A stretch of 20,929 nucleotides of DNA. Source: a virus. Shown piece by piece: positions 3,500-13,140 of this stretch; position 1 is the first letter of the stretch, and each line of letters starts with the position of its first letter. The position numbers were made by a program, and so were the translations under genes. The notes under the pieces were generated by a model. It saw only the letters and a list, made by a program, of their open reading frames with translations, had not been told where the DNA came from and made no database searches. The stretch is taken from the IMG/VR virus record IMGVR_UViG_3300050821_003615, positions 1 through 20,929 of that record; one strand, given 5' to 3'.

Positions 3500-4938
3500 A
3501 AGTCAACGCAATCTTCGGGGCGGGTGTTGCCGGGAAAAGCTACGTGGTCACACGGCAGCGGCGCCTGAACTGCTACTACGAGAACCGCGATGACAAGGAC
3601 AAGTCCCCGATCGCGGTCTACGGGACGCCCGGCATGGCGCTCGCGGGCGCGATCGGCACGAACGTCGGCGCCTCGGTGCGCGGGATGATCGGCAACCCTA
3701 ACAACCTCTTCGCGGTGGTGGGCGGGATCTTCTACCAGCTGAACCCGAACCTCTCGACCTTCTACAGCCTCCCCATCGGCACGAACTTCGGCCTCGTCAC
3801 ACTCGCCACCAACACCAACAACGTGCAGGTCGCGCTGGTGGACGGCACGAGCGGCTACATCTTCACCGCCGGCGCTCTGGTGCCGATCGTCTCGGCCGGC
3901 TTCCCGAACGGGGCGAAGACCATCACCTTCGCGGCCGGGTTCTTCGTGGCGGAGAAGCCGAACTCCCAGCAGTTCCAGGTGTCGGCCGCCTTTGACGGCA
4001 CGACCTGGAACCCGCTCGCTTTCGCCTCCGCATCGCAGTACTCGGACTTCCTCCTGGCGGTCGACAACCTGGTGGGAAACCTCCTCCTCTTTTGCGGCAC
4101 GCACCTTGAGTTTTGGCAGAACGTCGGCACGACCCCGCAGCCGTACGCGCCGATCCTCTCGGCCACGGTCGAGTACGGGATCGCGGCGATCTTCTCGCGC
4201 GTGCACGTGGACAACTCGATCATCTTCCTCGCCCGCTCCCAGCAAGGCGGAGTGAAGGTGTGCCGGATCATGGGGTACCAGGTGACGCCCATCTCCACCC
4301 CGGATCTTGAGGCAATTTTCGCCACCTTCCCCACGGTCGCCGACTGTGTCGGGCTCTCCTACGACACCGACAAGCACCCTATGGCGCAGCTCACGTTCCC
4401 GAGCGCGAACCGCTCGTTCCTCTACGACTGCTCGACCGGGATCTGGAGCGAGACGCAGACTGGGCTCACGCAGAACTACGCCGCGCGCCACCTCGGCAAC
4501 CTCTCGACCTTCTTCGGTGGCAAGCAATACATCGCCGACTCGACGTCCAACAATCTCTACGTCCCGAGCGCAACCCAGTTCACCGACAACGGTGCGGTCA
4601 TCAAGCGCGAGATCATCACGCGCCACCAGCTGAAGGACTTCAACCTGTTCAGCATCGGGGAGCTGTACGTCGACATTGAGACCGGGGTCGGGCTCACCTC
4701 CGGCCAGGGCTCGAACCCGGTCGTCGGGATGGAGTGCTCGAAGGACAACGGCCGGACCTGGCTCACCCAGCGCACGAAGACGATCGGGATGCAGGGCCAG
4801 TACAACTCCTCCGGCCAGCGCCTGCACTTCAACCGCTGGGGGTCCTCGCGCGTGTTCACCTTTCGCCTCTGCATGACGGATCCGGTGAAGTTCGCGCTCA
4901 CCGCCGGGGCGACCAGCGAAGGCGTGCGCGCGCAGTGA
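3496..4938 (+). CDS. gp10-like packaged-DNA stabilization (tail hub) protein
   Basis: The protein matches the P22 gp10 'phage stabilisation' family, the tail hub that plugs the connector beneath gp4. A TTG at 3496 overlapping the previous stop as TTGA gives 480 aa, close to the 472 aa of P22 gp10; an upstream ATG at 3391 would add residues buried in the gp4-like gene. The start motif is KVNAIFGAGVAGKSYVVTRQ, followed by many short WD-like beta strands typical of the family (RGMIGNPNNLFAVVGG; DNLVGNLLLFCGTHLEFWQN; DNSIIFLARSQQGG; FLYDCSTGIWSETQTG). No clear Shine-Dalgarno is seen, so translation is probably coupled to the preceding gene. Confidence 0.82.
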   Translation: MKVNAIFGAGVAGKSYVVTRQRRLNCYYENRDDKDKSPIAVYGTPGMALAGAIGTNVGASVRGMIGNPNNLFAVVGGIFYQLNPNLSTFYSLPIGTNFGLVTLATNTNNVQVALVDGTSGYIFTAGALVPIVSAGFPNGAKTITFAAGFFVAEKPNSQQFQVSAAFDGTTWNPLAFASASQYSDFLLAVDNLVGNLLLFCGTHLEFWQNVGTTPQPYAPILSATVEYGIAAIFSRVHVDNSIIFLARSQQGGVKVCRIMGYQVTPISTPDLEAIFATFPTVADCVGLSYDTDKHPMAQLTFPSANRSFLYDCSTGIWSETQTGLTQNYAARHLGNLSTFFGGKQYIADSTSNNLYVPSATQFTDNGAVIKREIITRHQLKDFNLFSIGELYVDIETGVGLTSGQGSNPVVGMECSKDNGRTWLTQRTKTIGMQGQYNSSGQRLHFNRWGSSRVFTFRLCMTDPVKFALTAGATSEGVRAQ

Positions 4939-6449
4939 GCACGAATCTACCGCCGATCCCGGGGCCGCTGATCACTGCGAAGTCGGTGCTCACCGCGCCG
5001 TGGCTGTCCTGGTTCTACCAGCTCCAGCAGACCGTGAACTCCTTAAGCGGCGGGATCGGCGGCTCGGTGCCGGCGACCCGCGCGATCAACACGATCGCGC
5101 CCCTGACCGGCGGCGGGACGCTGGCCGCAGACCTGACGCTCGCGGTGAGTCTCTTTGCGGCCGGATCCGCGGGCATCGTGCCGGCCTCGGGCGGCGGGAC
5201 CGTGAACTTCCTGCGCGCGGACGGAAGCTGGGTACCGCCGACCGGCGGGGGCCCGTGGACGCTCACCGCCGTCGACCGGATGGTCGCCTCCAACGCCGGC
5301 GCGAGTCAGACCGGCGCGCGCGTGTTCCTCGAGGGCGCGAACGCCGGCGCGAACTCGACGATCAGCGACATCATTGCCTTGGGCGACAACGCGCTCGCGG
5401 GCGGGATCACGGACGCGACGCTCGCCGGGTCGATCGTCATCGGGTCGGGGAGCTTCCCCGGATTCTTCAACTCTGACAGCGGCGGCCCGATCACCTCGGT
5501 CGGGTTCAATGTCGCGCCGCTCCTGGTGCCGTCCGGCGCCTTCGGCGGGATCAGTGGCGTCGCACTCCTCGGCGACAACATCGCCAACAAGTACACCGGC
5601 ACGCGCTCGAACGAGCAGTTCTTCAACACCGTCGGGATCGGCTCCTTCGTCTTTTCGTTCCTGGACTCGACTATCAGCGGCGCGCCACCGCAGAACACGG
5701 TCGCGATCGGCTGGGGCGCCTGCTCCAATGTGCAAAACGCCGGGGGCACGCAAGAGGCGAACATCACGCAAAACGTGATTATCGGCACTCAGGCGGTGTC
5801 CGCTATTAAAGGGACCGCCCTCAACCCCCCGAACCTCTCCGCGAACGTGTGCATCGGCTACCGGGCCGGCCAACTCGGCGGCAACAATCCCGGTACGTCG
5901 TTCGTCGGGAACGTGCTTGTCGGCTCGTCGGCCGGCGACTCGTACGGCCTGAGCAACTGCGTACTGATCGGCAACAATGCCATCACGAACGGCTCGACGA
6001 ACACCTCGCGCGGGAACATCGGCATCGGCGGGTTGGACTTCGGCAACAACTCGCTCAATACCGGTGAGCAGAGCAACATCGTGATCGGGGCCGGCGCGCA
6101 GAACGCCGCCGCCAACGTCCGCTGTCTCCTCTTCGGGGTGGGCTGCGGACGCGGCTCGATTGCCGCGGCGAGCGATCAGTTCCTGCTGGAAACCTTTGAC
6201 CCGATCAACGACGGCACCCGTCGCGCGCTCCTGTACGGGCTGCTCGCGGCCGCCTCCCCTGGCGGGCTGATCGTGGGACACTCCACCCAGGGCACGAACC
6301 GGGACATCCCGGGATTCAACATCCTGAAGATCATCAACGGCTCGAAGACCGGAGTGAACCCGGTTGGCGGTGGGTTCTTGTACGTGAGCGCGGGGGCGTT
6401 GCATTACGTGGGCACAGCCGGGACTGACACCCCGCTGGCCGTGGCTTAA
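4935..6449 (+). CDS. Tail fibre/needle-position protein with YadA-like repeats
   Basis: A GTG at 4935 overlaps the previous stop as GTGA and gives 504 aa; the open frame extends further upstream only in shadow sequence. The N-terminus (LPPIPGPLITAKSVLTAPWL, then SWFYQLQQTV) is typical of a virion-anchoring head of phage fibres. Then comes LTGGGTLAADLTLAVSL and NFLRADGSWVPP, a linker common in tail fibres. The C-terminal half carries a run of degenerate repeats of the form N-x-hydrophobic-x-IG-x-x-A (NVCIGYRAG, NVLVGSSAG, NCVLIGNNA, NIGIGGLDFG, NIVIGAGAQ), like the left-handed beta-roll of trimeric YadA-type heads. It occupies the slot after gp10 where P22 encodes the needle gp26. Trimeric fibre is inferred; receptor unknown. 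Confidence 0.72.
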   Translation: MSTNLPPIPGPLITAKSVLTAPWLSWFYQLQQTVNSLSGGIGGSVPATRAINTIAPLTGGGTLAADLTLAVSLFAAGSAGIVPASGGGTVNFLRADGSWVPPTGGGPWTLTAVDRMVASNAGASQTGARVFLEGANAGANSTISDIIALGDNALAGGITDATLAGSIVIGSGSFPGFFNSDSGGPITSVGFNVAPLLVPSGAFGGISGVALLGDNIANKYTGTRSNEQFFNTVGIGSFVFSFLDSTISGAPPQNTVAIGWGACSNVQNAGGTQEANITQNVIIGTQAVSAIKGTALNPPNLSANVCIGYRAGQLGGNNPGTSFVGNVLVGSSAGDSYGLSNCVLIGNNAITNGSTNTSRGNIGIGGLDFGNNSLNTGEQSNIVIGAGAQNAAANVRCLLFGVGCGRGSIAAASDQFLLETFDPINDGTRRALLYGLLAAASPGGLIVGHSTQGTNRDIPGFNILKIINGSKTGVNPVGGGFLYVSAGALHYVGTAGTDTPLAVA

Positions 6450-6463
6450 ACGAGGAGGACGAG

Positions 6464-6703
6464 ATGGGTATCGCAAAAGCAGTGATCGAGGTGGATCTGG
6501 CAGAGCTGACGGCAATCCAGCAAGGCCTCGCCGCGCTCAAGGTCTCGGCGGACATGACCGCGCAGGCGATCGAGCGGCAACTGACCGAGCAGCTCGCGAA
6601 CGCGCAGCGCCAGGCGGCCGTCGAGGCGCGGAAGAAACGCAAGGTCGCGCGCGCGAACTCGCACGCGAGCCCGGAGCCGGCTGCCGGTGGTGCGCCATCG
6701 TGA
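6464..6703 (+). CDS. Small coiled-coil protein, function unknown
   Basis: A 79-aa protein predicted to be a single long helix (AELTAIQQGLAALKVSADMT and AIERQLTEQLANAQRQAA), followed by a basic patch (KKRKVARA) and a Pro/Gly/Ala tail. A clear GAGGAGG Shine-Dalgarno lies seven bases before ATG6464, stronger than that of most neighbours, so separate initiation is likely. It overlaps the cupin-SET gene by four bases (GTGA). The basic tail could bind nucleic acid or be a protein-modification target, but there is no family match; the position among tail genes suggests a minor virion or assembly protein. Confidence 0.7.
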   Translation: MGIAKAVIEVDLAELTAIQQGLAALKVSADMTAQAIERQLTEQLANAQRQAAVEARKKRKVARANSHASPEPAAGGAPS

Positions 6704-7542
6704 ACGAGCTCGCCACACTCGCGCACCTCCCGGTCGAGGAGCTTGAGCGGGAGATGCTAAAACTCCCGCAGGCGCCGTGCGGCGTGCGTCATCACTTCAT
6801 CGCCGGGCTCTACATCCGCGAGGTGACGATCGCGGCGGACACGTACGCGATCGGACACCGGCACAAGGTCCCGCACGTGAATATCCTGCAAAAGGGGCGC
6901 GTGGCGATGGTGGGACCTGACGGGCGCACGATCGAACTCACCGCGCCGACGATGTATATCGGCCAGGCGGGCCGCAAGGTCGGCTACATCCGGGAAGACA
7001 TGACCTGGTTCAACATCTTCCCGACCGAGGAGACGGATGTTACGAAGCTTGAGGCGCTGCTCTTCGAGAAGAGCGAGGCGTTCGAGCAGGCGGCCGCCGC
7101 GCTCCTGCCGAGCGCGGAGCCGGATCGGCTGATCGGGTACAACCGCGAGGACTACAAGGACTTCATCGCGCAGGCCTTCCCCGGCAAGACCGAGCGGCAA
7201 GTGCGCGCAACCTTCGGCGGGGACGATGATGTGATCCAGTTTCCGCGCGGCACGTACAAGGTGAAGGTCGCCCCCTCGCACATCCACGGCCAGGGGGTGA
7301 TCGCGACCCACGACATCGCGGCCGGGGAGACGATCTGTGCGGCGAAGATCGGGGAGAACCGCACGCCGGCCGGGCGTTTTACCAATCACGCCCGCGACCC
7401 GAACGCGCGTATGCTTCGCCAGGCGCAAGTCGTGATGCTGGTCGCACTGCGTGCCATCAAGGGGGCACACGGCGGGATGGACGGTGAGGAGGTGACCGTC
7501 AACTACCGCCAGGCCATAGCGGAGGCTGCGAAGGACTCATGA
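6700..7542 (+). CDS. Cupin-SET fusion protein (putative lysine methyltransferase)
   Basis: A GTG start overlaps the previous stop. Residues about 30-110 form a cupin-like barrel: HHFIAGLYIREVTI, then GHRHKVPHVNILQKGRV (52-68) with His53, His55 and His59 as possible metal ligands. The second cupin motif (QAGRKVGYIREDMTWFNIFP) lacks its histidine. After a helical linker, residues about 184-271 form a minimal SET domain: IHGQGVIATHDIAAGETI (195-212), RFTNHARDPNA (226-236, the NHSxxPN SAM-binding motif) and GEEVTVNYR (262-270) with Tyr269 as the expected catalytic tyrosine. SET enzymes methylate lysines in proteins. No pre-SET or post-SET cysteines are present. It lies between fibre and ejection genes, so a virion or host protein could be the substrate; that is inference. 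Confidence 0.77.
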   Translation: MNELATLAHLPVEELEREMLKLPQAPCGVRHHFIAGLYIREVTIAADTYAIGHRHKVPHVNILQKGRVAMVGPDGRTIELTAPTMYIGQAGRKVGYIREDMTWFNIFPTEETDVTKLEALLFEKSEAFEQAAAALLPSAEPDRLIGYNREDYKDFIAQAFPGKTERQVRATFGGDDDVIQFPRGTYKVKVAPSHIHGQGVIATHDIAAGETICAAKIGENRTPAGRFTNHARDPNARMLRQAQVVMLVALRAIKGAHGGMDGEEVTVNYRQAIAEAAKDS

Positions 7543-8309
7543 GCGCGATTGCGACGGCGATTGTGGGTGGGGCGATCATCGCAGGCGCCGGGTCTGCGAT
7601 CGCCGGGCACGAGGCGGCGGGCGCGACGACCGCAGCAGCGAACACGGCCGCAGGCGTGCAGCAGCAGGCGCTCGCCCAGCAGCTCGCGCTCGCCACGCCC
7701 TACACGAACCTGGGCCAGTCGGCGATCCCGACGTACCAGGCGCTCTTGGGGATCGGCGGCGGTGGTGCCCCAGGTGGAGCGGGCCGCGGCACCCGTCCGA
7801 CCGCGGGCGCACCGGGTGCAGGCGGGCCGGGCGGCAGCATCGAGCAGACGCTACAAAACCTGCCCGGCTACCAGTTCCAACTCACCCAAGGGGTGGATGC
7901 GGCGAAGGCGGCGGCCGCCTCCGAAGGCCTCGGACTGTCCGGCAACGCGATCCAGGGCATCGAGACCTTCGGCTCCGGGCTCGCCGACTCGAACTACCAG
8001 CAGTACCTGCAGGACCTGCTCGCGCCGATCCAGATCGGCCAAGGCGCAGCCGCGGGCCAGGCCGCCAACATCCAGACCGGCGCCTCGAATCTCGGCAACA
8101 TCGCCATCGGCCGCGGCAATGCGATGGCGGGGATCGACGCGAACGAGACCGCGGGCCTCACGCGCGCGGCCGGCAACGCGGGCCAGCAGGCGCTCACCTA
8201 CCAGACGCTGCAGAACCTGAACCCGAACTCCGGCGCGCCGGCCGGGTGGGGCGTGGGCGGGCAGACCGGGGACTTGAACTACGGCCAGCAAGTGGCGGCG
8301 GGGTTCTAA
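7539..8309 (+). CDS. gp7-like DNA ejection protein
   Basis: This 256-aa protein resembles the smaller ejection proteins of P22-type podoviruses, which leave the virion with the DNA and help form the channel across the cell envelope. It opens with a hydrophobic glycine/alanine segment (AIVGGAIIAGAGSAIAG), then an Ala/Gln-rich helix, a Gly/Pro-rich linker (about 75-100), and the recognisable core LPGYQFQLTQGVDAAKAAAA, followed by GLGLSGNAIQGIETFGSGLA and a Tyr/Gln-rich helix. The order gp7, gp20, gp16 in P22 matches this gene and the next two. ATG7539 overlaps the upstream stop as ATGA. The assignment rests on the core motif and gene order. Confidence 0.7.
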   Translation: MSAIATAIVGGAIIAGAGSAIAGHEAAGATTAAANTAAGVQQQALAQQLALATPYTNLGQSAIPTYQALLGIGGGGAPGGAGRGTRPTAGAPGAGGPGGSIEQTLQNLPGYQFQLTQGVDAAKAAAASEGLGLSGNAIQGIETFGSGLADSNYQQYLQDLLAPIQIGQGAAAGQAANIQTGASNLGNIAIGRGNAMAGIDANETAGLTRAAGNAGQQALTYQTLQNLNPNSGAPAGWGVGGQTGDLNYGQQVAAGF

Positions 8310-9745: not shown

Positions 9746-11827
9746 ATGCCGACCTACGAGATTCAGGCCCCGGACGGCAATAAGTACCGGATCGAGGGCC
9801 CCGCCGGCGCAACTGACGACCAGGTACGCGCCCAGGTGCTCCAGCAGCACCCCCAGGCCGGCACGGCCAAGGCGGCAGCGCCGAAGCCGGACAGCGCACT
9901 CAAGACGGTCGGCAAGGAGGCGCTCGGCGGGCTTGAGGCAGCCGCCAGCACCGCGACCGGCATCGCCGGGGGACTTGGTGGCGGGCTCACCTACCTCGGC
10001 ACCCTGGCCGCCTCCGGCGGCGACACCGAGGCGGCCAAGGCTGTCCAGGAGGACACCCAAAAGGCCCTGACCTACCAGCCGAAGACGCAAGCGGGAAAGG
10101 CGGACGTCGCGGCGGTTGGGAACATCGCGACCGCCGCGATCGAGCGCCCGACGGAGGCCGCCGGGGACATCGCGCGCCGCGGGGTCCAAGCGGTCGGAGG
10201 ATCCCCGGAAGCGGCCGGGGTGGCCGGCTCGTTCGTCAAGACGGGCCTGCAGGCCCTCCCGTACGTCGCAGGTTATCGCGGGGCGGGCGCCGCCGCGCGC
10301 GGGGCGGAAACCGCGGCAGGGGCCGCAGAGACAGCAGGGGAGGCCGCAGCACGTGCACACGTCACTCGCACCACTTCTCTGGATTGGAACAGCGTACCTC
10401 CTGCTATCAAGAGGACCTTGTCCCGGATGGCTGCGCGCGGAGAAGACCTGGGACGCCTGGATCCGAAGGCGCTTGAGCGGGTCGCGCGCGCCCAGTCGCT
10501 GGACGTCCCGGTTCCAATCACTCGAGGTCAAGCTACCCGGGACCTGGCGAATATCACTGAGGAGGAGCAGCTGCGTCGGTCAAACGTCGGGGGCCCGCTA
10601 CGCGCCAAAATGTCGGAACAGGACACGGCCCTACATCGAAATTTAGCCGCCGTGCGGGAGCAGGTCGCGCCGGGCTCGAAGGTCACGAGCTCCGCCGACG
10701 CGGGCCTCCCCGTGCAGACGGCCGCGCGCCGCAAGCTCCAGGTGATGAAGGGCCAGTCGACGCGCCTGTACGAAGAGGCGCGCAAGGCCGGCGACCTCGA
10801 GGCGCCCGTCTCGACCGATCCGATCATGACGTGGCTGCAGGACCCGGCGAACAAGGCGAACGCCGGGTGGGTCGAGCAACGCCTGCGCGCGTACGATGCG
10901 CACCCGGGCGGCAAGCCGCAGCCGGGGCAGCCAACGACCGCGCCGATCCTCACGATCAACAACCTCGAGCGCGTGCGCCAGGAGCTGAACGCCGCCACGC
11001 AAGAGGGCGGGACGAAGGGCCATTACGCGGGGCAGGCGAAGGGGGTGCTCGACCAGCTCCTCGACAACTCCGGCGGAGATGCCTACAAGAAGGCGCGCGC
11101 GTCCTGGCGGGAGTGGAACCAGGAGTTCGGCCGGCAGCGCGCGATCCGCGACCTCACGCGCGAGAAGGCGGGGCTCACCGACCGGCGCATCGCGCTTGAG
11201 GGCACGACCGACTACGTGCTGAAGTCCTCGCGCGAGTCGCTGGAGGAGATCAAGGCCACCCTCACCAAGGGCGGCACGGAGAAGACGCGCGCGCGCGGCG
11301 AGAAGGCCTGGCGGGATCTGCAGGCCGGCGTCGTGCAGAAGCTGCGTGAGGAGGCGGCCGGCAAGCGCGCGATCAGGAACGAGGCGGACGCGGAGCAGTT
11401 CAACGCCTCCTTCCTCGATCGGTTCCACGAGCTCGACCGCTCCGGCAAGCTCGAGGTGCTCTTCGGGGACAAGGCAGCGGCGAAGCTGCGAAAGTTCGCC
11501 GACACGGTCCACGACGTGCGCACCACCCCGGCGGACCGCGTGGCCGGCCCGAACACCGCGACGCGCCTCGCGGCGCTGATGGAGACCTTCGCGCACTCCA
11601 CCGGCCTCTCGTTCGTCGCACGCGGGGTGCGCAAGGTCGGGGAGAAGATCCACGAGGGCGTGCGGGAAGAAGAACTCGCCCGCAACCCGCTCGAGGACGC
11701 AGCCGCAACGGGGGCACGGGCGGACCGCGCGGAGGCGCGCGGCGCGCGCGCTGGTAGGTTGACGCGCACGCTCAAGGAGCGCTATGGCGCGGGCAGCGTG
11801 GTGCAGTCTACCCAGGACCAGCAGTGA
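9746..11827 (+). CDS. gp16-like large DNA ejection protein
   Basis: ATG9746, one base after the previous stop, gives 693 aa; an earlier in-frame ATG lies inside the upstream gene. The N-terminal ~35 residues (YEIQAPDGNKYRIEGPAGAT, then DDQVRAQVLQQHP) form a small beta-alpha domain with the GPxGATxxQ motif recurrent in phage virion proteins. Two glycine/alanine-rich hydrophobic zones follow (about 50-85 and 155-195), compatible with membrane insertion, then a long charged helical region to the end. This suits the largest P22-type ejection protein (gp16), which acts in the cytoplasmic membrane. No lytic transglycosylase motif was found. It overlaps the ATP-grasp gene as GTGA. Confidence 0.62.
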   Translation: MPTYEIQAPDGNKYRIEGPAGATDDQVRAQVLQQHPQAGTAKAAAPKPDSALKTVGKEALGGLEAAASTATGIAGGLGGGLTYLGTLAASGGDTEAAKAVQEDTQKALTYQPKTQAGKADVAAVGNIATAAIERPTEAAGDIARRGVQAVGGSPEAAGVAGSFVKTGLQALPYVAGYRGAGAAARGAETAAGAAETAGEAAARAHVTRTTSLDWNSVPPAIKRTLSRMAARGEDLGRLDPKALERVARAQSLDVPVPITRGQATRDLANITEEEQLRRSNVGGPLRAKMSEQDTALHRNLAAVREQVAPGSKVTSSADAGLPVQTAARRKLQVMKGQSTRLYEEARKAGDLEAPVSTDPIMTWLQDPANKANAGWVEQRLRAYDAHPGGKPQPGQPTTAPILTINNLERVRQELNAATQEGGTKGHYAGQAKGVLDQLLDNSGGDAYKKARASWREWNQEFGRQRAIRDLTREKAGLTDRRIALEGTTDYVLKSSRESLEEIKATLTKGGTEKTRARGEKAWRDLQAGVVQKLREEAAGKRAIRNEADAEQFNASFLDRFHELDRSGKLEVLFGDKAAAKLRKFADTVHDVRTTPADRVAGPNTATRLAALMETFAHSTGLSFVARGVRKVGEKIHEGVREEELARNPLEDAAATGARADRAEARGARAGRLTRTLKERYGAGSVVQSTQDQQ

Positions 11828-13140
11828 AGGTCCTGGTCATCGAGCACGAGGACGCTGGGTGCGGACTCGCCTTCTGTCTGCGCTGCATCCGCGCCGGCCA
11901 CCAGGTGCGCTACTACGCCGGTAAGGGCTCGCGCGTCGGGGAAGGGTTCCCGGGCCTGCAGCGGATCGACAACTGGGTGTCGGCGTTGCGGTGGGCGGAC
12001 CTCGTGTGGTGCACCGGCAACCACGAGTTCCTGCCGAAGCTCGACTACGCCAAGTCCCAGGGCGTGTGCGTGTTCGCCCCGTCCGTGCAGTCCGCCCAGC
12101 TTGAGATCAAGCGCGCGAAGGGGATGAAGTTCTTCGAGGATCACGACATATCGGTGCCGGATTACCACCAGTTCGCGAGTCTAAAGGAGGCGGAGCTGTT
12201 CCAGCGCAAGACCGACGCGCGCTTCGTGTTCAAGACCCTCGGAGACGAGGAGGACAAGTCCTTGTCCTACGTCGGCAAGACTCCGGCCGACATGGTCGCG
12301 CGCCTGCAGCGCTGGCAGCGCCTCGGCATGAACCCGAAGGGCCCGGTGATGCTGCAGGCGTGCATCGAAGGCCTGGAGCTCGGCGTGTCGCGCTGGATGG
12401 GCGCGGACGGGTTCGTGGGTCCCTACAACGAGAACTTCGAGCACAAGAAGCTGCTCTCCGGCAACTGCGGCCCGAACTGCGGGGAAGCCGGCACGGTGCA
12501 GAAGTACACCACCGACTCCTCACTCGGGGAGATGGTGCTCGCCCCGCTTGAGGCCGCGCTGGTCAAGCTCGGGCACCTGGGCGACATCGACGTGAACTGC
12601 ATCATCGATGAGGCGGGGAAGCCGTGGCCGTTGGAGTTCACGTGCCGCCCCGGCTGGCCGGCCTACAACATCATGATGGCGACGCACCAGGGCGACCCGG
12701 CCGAGTGGATGCTCGATGCGTGCAAGGGCAAGGACACGCTCAAGGTGACGACGGCGATCGCGGCCGGGGTGGTGGTCGCGCAGCCGGACTACCCGTACTC
12801 GGAGAAGACGAAGGCGGAGACACTGGACATCCCGATCTACGGCGTGAGCGACAAGAACCGCCGGTTCGTGGCGCCCCAGTCGGTGAAGATGGCAACGCTC
12901 CCGCAGATGGTCGAGGGCAAGGTGAAGGACGAGCCGATGTGGGCGACCTGCGGGGACTACATTGCGGTGGTGACCGGGGTCGGAAAGTCTGTTAAACAGG
13001 CGTGCGAGCGAGCCTACCGGGTAGTGAAGGACCTCTCCGTTCCCAACATGATCTACCGCGACGACATCGGCGAGAAGCTCGAGGCGGAACTGCCCAAGCT
13101 CCAGGCGCACGGGTTCGCGGAGGAGTTTACCTATGGGTGA
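11824..13140 (+). CDS. PurD-like ATP-grasp ligase
   Basis: The 438-aa product follows the whole domain order of phosphoribosylamine-glycine ligase (PurD/GARS): N-domain MKVLVIEHEDAGCGLAFCLR, then FAPSVQSAQLEIKRAKGMKF (84-103), the ATP-grasp part with FVFKTLGDEEDK (134-145), QACIEGLELGVSRWMGADGF (178-197), EHKKLLSGNCGPNCGEAGTV (206-225), DVNCIIDEAGKPWPLEFTCR (256-275), and the C-domain ACERAYRVV plus YRDDIGEKLE. PurD joins glycine to phosphoribosylamine. Here the N-terminal GGREHAL-type motif is replaced and the metal-site 'EFNCR' reads EFTCR, so the substrate may differ. GTG start overlaps the ejection gene's stop. A purine-pathway auxiliary enzyme or an unrelated amide ligase are both possible. 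Confidence 0.78.
   Translation: MKVLVIEHEDAGCGLAFCLRCIRAGHQVRYYAGKGSRVGEGFPGLQRIDNWVSALRWADLVWCTGNHEFLPKLDYAKSQGVCVFAPSVQSAQLEIKRAKGMKFFEDHDISVPDYHQFASLKEAELFQRKTDARFVFKTLGDEEDKSLSYVGKTPADMVARLQRWQRLGMNPKGPVMLQACIEGLELGVSRWMGADGFVGPYNENFEHKKLLSGNCGPNCGEAGTVQKYTTDSSLGEMVLAPLEAALVKLGHLGDIDVNCIIDEAGKPWPLEFTCRPGWPAYNIMMATHQGDPAEWMLDACKGKDTLKVTTAIAAGVVVAQPDYPYSEKTKAETLDIPIYGVSDKNRRFVAPQSVKMATLPQMVEGKVKDEPMWATCGDYIAVVTGVGKSVKQACERAYRVVKDLSVPNMIYRDDIGEKLEAELPKLQAHGFAEEFTYG

Follow-up and report, generated by a model that had tools for sequence, protein, structure and literature searches.

What would a protein that joins a cupin to a SET domain be doing among the virion genes of a phage? The gene that raises this question lies in a window of 20,929 nucleotides, positions 1 to 20,929 of the IMG/VR record IMGVR_UViG_3300050821_003615, from a virus of the short-tailed phage type. 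A first-pass annotation, made from the letters alone, had read the product as a cupin-SET fusion encoded between fibre and ejection genes that could methylate a virion or host protein. The features needed for the argument are the following.

3520..4938, + strand: head closure protein Hc3 (P22 gp10-like); phrog_578, 4e-71
4986..6449, + strand: probable tail fibre gene; no Pfam or PHROG match
6464..6703, + strand: small ORF whose tail is rich in lysine, upstream of the cupin-SET start and overlapping it; not conserved
6700..7542, + strand: cupin, helical linker and short SET protein; 280 aa, GTG start, PHROG 34170
6733..7080, + strand: cupin domain, residues 12-127; AlphaFold pLDDT ~95, Foldseek PDB cupins, phrog_24280 and phrog_12032
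7081..7242, + strand: helical linker, residues 128-181; from the AlphaFold model and split-gene loci
7243..7515, + strand: short SET domain, residues 182-272; Pfam PF00856, model pLDDT 89.5, Foldseek top match vSET 3kma
7276..7296, + strand: SET motif I, SxIxGxG, residues 193-199; aligned with SPIHGRG of MLL1
7360..7404, + strand: RTPxGR(F/Y)xNHxxxPN, the short-form signature plus SET motif III, residues 221-235
7489..7509, + strand: SET motif IV, E-x-T-x-x-Y-R, with the catalytic-type Tyr269; aligned with GEELTYDY of MLL1
7539..8309, + strand: downstream ejection protein; phrog_598 DNA ejection, 1.2e-21; ATGA overlap

The cupin-SET ORF runs from a GTG start at 6700 to a TGA stop ending at 7542, and overlaps each of its neighbours by four bases, the upstream one through GTGA at 6700-6703 and the downstream one through ATGA at 7539-7542, an arrangement like that of a translated operon. 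An AlphaFold model of the full-length protein, with 57 family members as input, reached a mean pLDDT of 92.2 and a pTM of 0.89 and comprises a barrel (residues 26-108), helices (114-172) and a small beta domain from residue 184. Since the profile of PHROG 34170 matches the protein over nearly its full length (E 1.3e-70, residues 12-275 to profile positions 20-281 of 296), and since 525 IMG/VR stretches encode relatives according to a two-pattern scan, the fusion goes beyond chance. The fused form occurs in the named phages zth2-2, Rhodoferax phage P26218, Pseudoalteromonas PH1 and the Manatee Spring podoviruses, whose proteins are members of PHROG 34170; this family has no assigned function, and the annotation of one member follows the PBCV-1 histone methyltransferase structure. 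No near-identical relatives turned up when the window was compared with phage records by megablast. Ten matches fell on bacterial or archaeal genome contigs, mostly metagenome bins of widely differing phyla; the bin matches are probably binned viral contigs, and those in large Paraburkholderia contigs look like prophages.

By profile comparison and predicted structure, the C-terminal half of the protein is a SET domain. The Pfam profile PF00856 gives 28.0 bits against the whole protein and 32.6 against the domain alone, above its cut-off of 22.4, and is matched individually by 55 of the 57 aligned family members (E up to 0.01). A sequence profile built from the C-terminal part finds MLL1/KMT2A (1.9e-9), vSET (1.1e-6) and EZH2. 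When the SET part was modelled alone (pLDDT 89.5), the best Foldseek match in the PDB was vSET (3kma; E 2.9e-5, TM 0.67), followed by MLL1, NSD1 and EZH2, and the first 50 matches were all SET methyltransferases. One close viral structure match is named 'SET domain containing protein'. Pfam, AlphaFold and Foldseek thus bear out the cupin and SET calls of the first-pass annotation, and the motifs that it had picked out are present, NHARDPN as residues 229-235 and NYR as residues 268-270. The closest known relative in fold, vSET (A612L of chlorella virus PBCV-1), is a small viral histone H3-Lys27 methyltransferase, and the profile match to it extends across the domain. However, vSET is a stand-alone protein of 119 residues, 88 profile positions being matched to 105 vSET residues, whereas the SET of the window is shorter, is fused to a cupin and is encoded within a phage assembly cluster.

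The domain is also shorter than the SET of MLL1, and the same parts are missing in all 76 relatives aligned. In 76 aligned relatives, which share 27-49% identity with the window protein, S193, G197 and G199 of motif I, the residues R221, T222, G225, R226 and N229, and E264 and Y269 of motif IV are all present without exception, and H230 is present in 75. The spacing from G199 to N229 is 30 in all 76, compared with 64 in MLL1 as read off the profile alignment; the SET-I/motif II region, about 34 residues relative to MLL1, is absent, and the domain is therefore filed as a short SET variant. A fixed RTPxG(R/G) element replaces this region and is common to most stand-alone phage SETs, among them those of P-SSM7, P-RSM6 and Kolga and of marine contigs. 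The post-SET region is missing as well, with 11 residues beyond Tyr269 that are modelled as a helix. Motif IV of the window protein reads VNY, with Val two positions ahead of the catalytic-type Tyr, and the same Val-x-Tyr arrangement is found in motif IV of SET7/9.

Since motifs I, III and IV are present and practically invariant, predicted binding of S-adenosylmethionine (SAM) by the short SET is plausible. A complete lysine channel cannot be demonstrated, because the SET-I and post-SET regions are absent, and completing the channel may need a partner. Median dN/dS over close pairs was 0.11 for the SET half and 0.09 for the cupin half, values that are approximate, with high synonymous distances. 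These values argue that the SET half is not decaying and point to purifying selection as strict as that on the cupin half. The cupin-SET protein has the appearance of an active enzyme.

Databases already contain SET domains from phages. A pattern scan found at least 580 stand-alone short SETs in phage contigs, and these proteins (phrog_28741 of P-SSM7 and P-RSM6, the pelagiphage Kolga, and marine contigs) are of about 100 aa, carry RTPxG(G/R)(F/Y)xNHxxxPN and likewise lack SET-I. They differ from the fused form in having no cupin, in a G-to-N spacing of 34 (77 of 79) instead of 30, and in not being tied to ejection genes. In the marine set of about 100 aa (L190-L269, 80 of the at least 580 loci), RTPLGGF(V/I/L)NH was present in 79 of the 79 read. 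The stand-alone gene lies beside baseplate gp25 in P-RSM6 and beside nrdB in P-SSM7. The short SET is not confined to phages, since the giant virus Marseillevirus LCMAC101 has one of the same size (100 aa; BFVD A0A481YSP5), which superposes on our model at 1.3 A. The first-pass view that SET enzymes are mainly eukaryotic or effector proteins is out of date, given a 2014 review that counted SET in more than 500 bacterial genomes (PMC3980110) and, in the present analysis, the more than 500 fused forms and at least 580 stand-alone short SETs of phage contigs.

The genomic setting is shared by most relatives. In 58 of 75 loci the gene that follows directly encodes a homologue of the window ejection protein, and 61 of the 75 have Hc3 a few genes upstream. 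The original placement between fibre and ejection genes holds on the ejection side (phrog_598, 1e-21), while on the other side the fibre assignment of 4986-6449 has no Pfam or PHROG match behind it. In many podoviruses the same slot is occupied by a cupin alone, of about 143-190 aa. In Vibrio phage VPMS1 and Thalassomonas BA3, a cupin-only gene precedes 'DNA ejection', and in the T7-like Sphaerotilus phage R1 a cupin-only gene has tail tubular B on one side and a T7_gp14-family protein on the other, which is the position of T7 gene 13. T7 gp13 (PF11090, a probable scaffold protein) shares this position between tail tubular B and gp14, but no sequence relation to cupin-SET was found and the likeness is positional only: a gp13 search matched T7's own gene alone, and PF11090 had no match in the window.

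When a cupin-only query was used, SET lay within the cupin ORF in just 3 of 75 loci (the mixed cupin-only alignment was too diverse to serve for scanning). Since most of the cupin-only relatives found work there without a SET, SET activity is not essential to the function of the slot. In a tree of the cupin domain most fused proteins form one group (support 99) and a few SET-bearing cupins fall elsewhere; five changes are needed in all, two of them forced by strongly supported branches. The two modules also occur as separate genes. At one locus (L184) SET, cupin and ejection are three overlapping genes in that order, at another (L102) the cupin is followed by a separate adjacent SET gene, and at a third (L100) the SET module is just upstream of putative virion genes, with no cupin within the stretch examined. 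Where SET is a separate gene, the linker from about residue 147 accompanies it. Fusion in some phages and adjacency in others indicate, at the level of gene arrangement, that the cupin and SET parts work together and that the SET is an optional module.

Several other genes were seen near these cupins. A short SET-like fragment (4890-5135) precedes the cupin ORF of L147 and may be a SET that is broken or has undergone a frameshift. In L184, where SET and cupin are separate genes, they are directly preceded by a 357-aa ORF (4504-5577) with HGSPHKFDAFD...GHGLYFAE-like sequence reminiscent of ADP-ribosyltransferases. GNAT acetyltransferase genes adjoin the cupin gene in zth2-2 (L005, 7090-7578) and in BPP-1 (L010, 7477-7941, bbp24). 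An exchange of SET for GNAT was considered and rejected, since only 4 loci have a GNAT and 3 of them also have a SET, so that there is no complementarity.

We tentatively propose that the protein is a late morphogenesis accessory in which the cupin brings a short SET lysine methyltransferase to tail or ejection assembly. This proposal builds on the two folds, the conserved SAM and catalytic motifs, the purifying selection, the slot beside the ejection gene and the separable, linked modules. We infer from them a sequence of steps in which the cupin, as the constant part, would bind a tail or ejection-protein assembly intermediate, and the short SET would bind S-adenosylmethionine and, by catalysis, methylate a lysine on the protein handled at that assembly step. 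The wall missing from the lysine channel would be supplied by a partner, and the substrate would most likely be one of the phage's internal/ejection or tail proteins. It is conceivable, with a good deal of doubt attached, that a large and previously undescribed class of phage short SETs methylates lysines of the phages' own ejection or tail proteins while these are assembled, and that the cupin does the targeting.

A serious rival, which we consider unlikely, is that the SET persists in an assembly factor for a structural or ligand-binding purpose and no longer transfers methyl groups. The absence in all 76 relatives of SET-I and post-SET, which in known enzymes contribute to the peptide groove and the lysine channel, is in keeping with this explanation, as is the occurrence of cupin-only versions in the same slot. 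However, conservation within the domain is highest in the SAM and catalytic motifs, with Tyr269 in every relative, and a purely structural role would not account for just this pattern; stand-alone short SETs with the same motifs occur in unrelated phages.

Improbable, in our estimate, is a putative methylation of a host protein, for example a translation or envelope protein, after ejection of the enzyme together with the internal proteins or late in infection. The gene does lie within the ejection cluster, and phage infection of Cellulophaga doubled the share of methylated peptides, with varying methylation of EF-Tu (PMC13288928). However, no methyltransferase is known from the phages of that study (PMC13288928), which means that the change must come from elsewhere, and a late gene would be expressed at a poor time for reprogramming the host.

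A search for a substrate among the neighbouring proteins found none, which counts against the morphogenesis proposal, as do the missing SET-I region and the cupin-only relatives in the same slot. The best lysine column is kept in only 25 of 56 relatives for the ejection protein and 26 of 61 for Hc3; with no column above 45%, both were set aside as conserved substrates. The ejection protein of the window has only one lysine. In the gp4-like tail accessory protein one lysine is kept in 33 of 34 relatives, but that protein is strongly conserved as a rule, and no conclusion about a substrate follows. The ORF at 6464-6703 ends in a basic tail, ARKKRKVARANS (KKRKVAR), and has the highest K+R fraction of 72 upstream ORFs; the KKRKVAR tail is unique to the window and was likewise rejected as a substrate.

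The cupin half raises a further alternative. Foldseek matched the full-length model to PDB cupins at E of about 1e-5 (a double-stranded beta-helix barrel), and Pfam Cupin_2 was found in 7 of 57 family members. Relative to the metal-binding cupin motif HxHx(3,4)E, H53, H/Q55 and H59 are at motif-1 positions, the E is replaced by H, and the motif-2 His is not clear. A role for the cupin as a JmjC-like demethylase partner was rejected, since H/Q follows H53 where the site HxD/E has D/E. The cupin-only 'short tail fiber' proteins (phrog_12032, phrog_24280; e.g. BPP-1 Bbp23) have a homologous cupin in the same genomic slot, but most have no SET and their metal-type His residues are less conserved. 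Matches of the cupin half to phrog_24280 'tail fiber adhesin' and phrog_12032 'short tail fiber protein' would suit a reading of cupin-SET as a tail fibre adhesin with the SET as an added binding domain. We regard this as very unlikely, as the name appears to be similarity-based only and the relatives are cupins of 143-190 aa adjoining the ejection gene, without a fibre-like repeat. For the phiAP1 cupin annotated as a short tail fibre, the Ralstonia phage paper itself states that there is no experimental validation (PMC8703784). Finally, a false SET resemblance arising from a SAF or antifreeze beta-clip, which the first-pass annotation had named as the outcome that would undo its SET call, can be practically dismissed, since the SAF match is weak (E 0.08) and under the SAF cut-off while the PF00856 cut-off is passed and the top 50 PDB matches are SET enzymes.

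A recent observation speaks for the morphogenesis proposal. Lysine methylation of phage virion proteins was first reported in 2026, in a study that found phage proteins with methylated lysine and arginine, both in infected cells and in free virions, for phages without a known methyltransferase (PMC13288928). In hundreds of genomes the cupin-SET family would provide a phage-encoded candidate writer of such methylation on virion proteins, and the many related phages that have the same cupin minus the SET form a natural control. An active enzyme would mean that the SET fold can function without SET-I and post-SET, and would give a biochemical role to the T7 gene-13 slot of podoviruses. In the literature library searched, we found no paper with a description of the cupin-SET fusion or a test of any phage SET protein; keyword searches in papers on P26218 and on Shewanella phage X14, an isolate with the cupin only, yielded nothing on a cupin-SET protein, and one phage paper only lists a SET-domain ORF (PMC9025141).

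The window holds other enzyme genes beside its virion genes. A TylF-like O-methyltransferase gene (class I) lies at 154-714, and 728-2470 encodes a 580-aa protein with an N-terminal class I methyltransferase domain; decoration of virion or host sugars is a possible role for both. Among the virion genes, 11824-13140 encodes an ATP-grasp protein similar to phosphoribosylglycinamide synthetase (GARS_C 1.9e-9), and in 5 loci a relative occupies this position.
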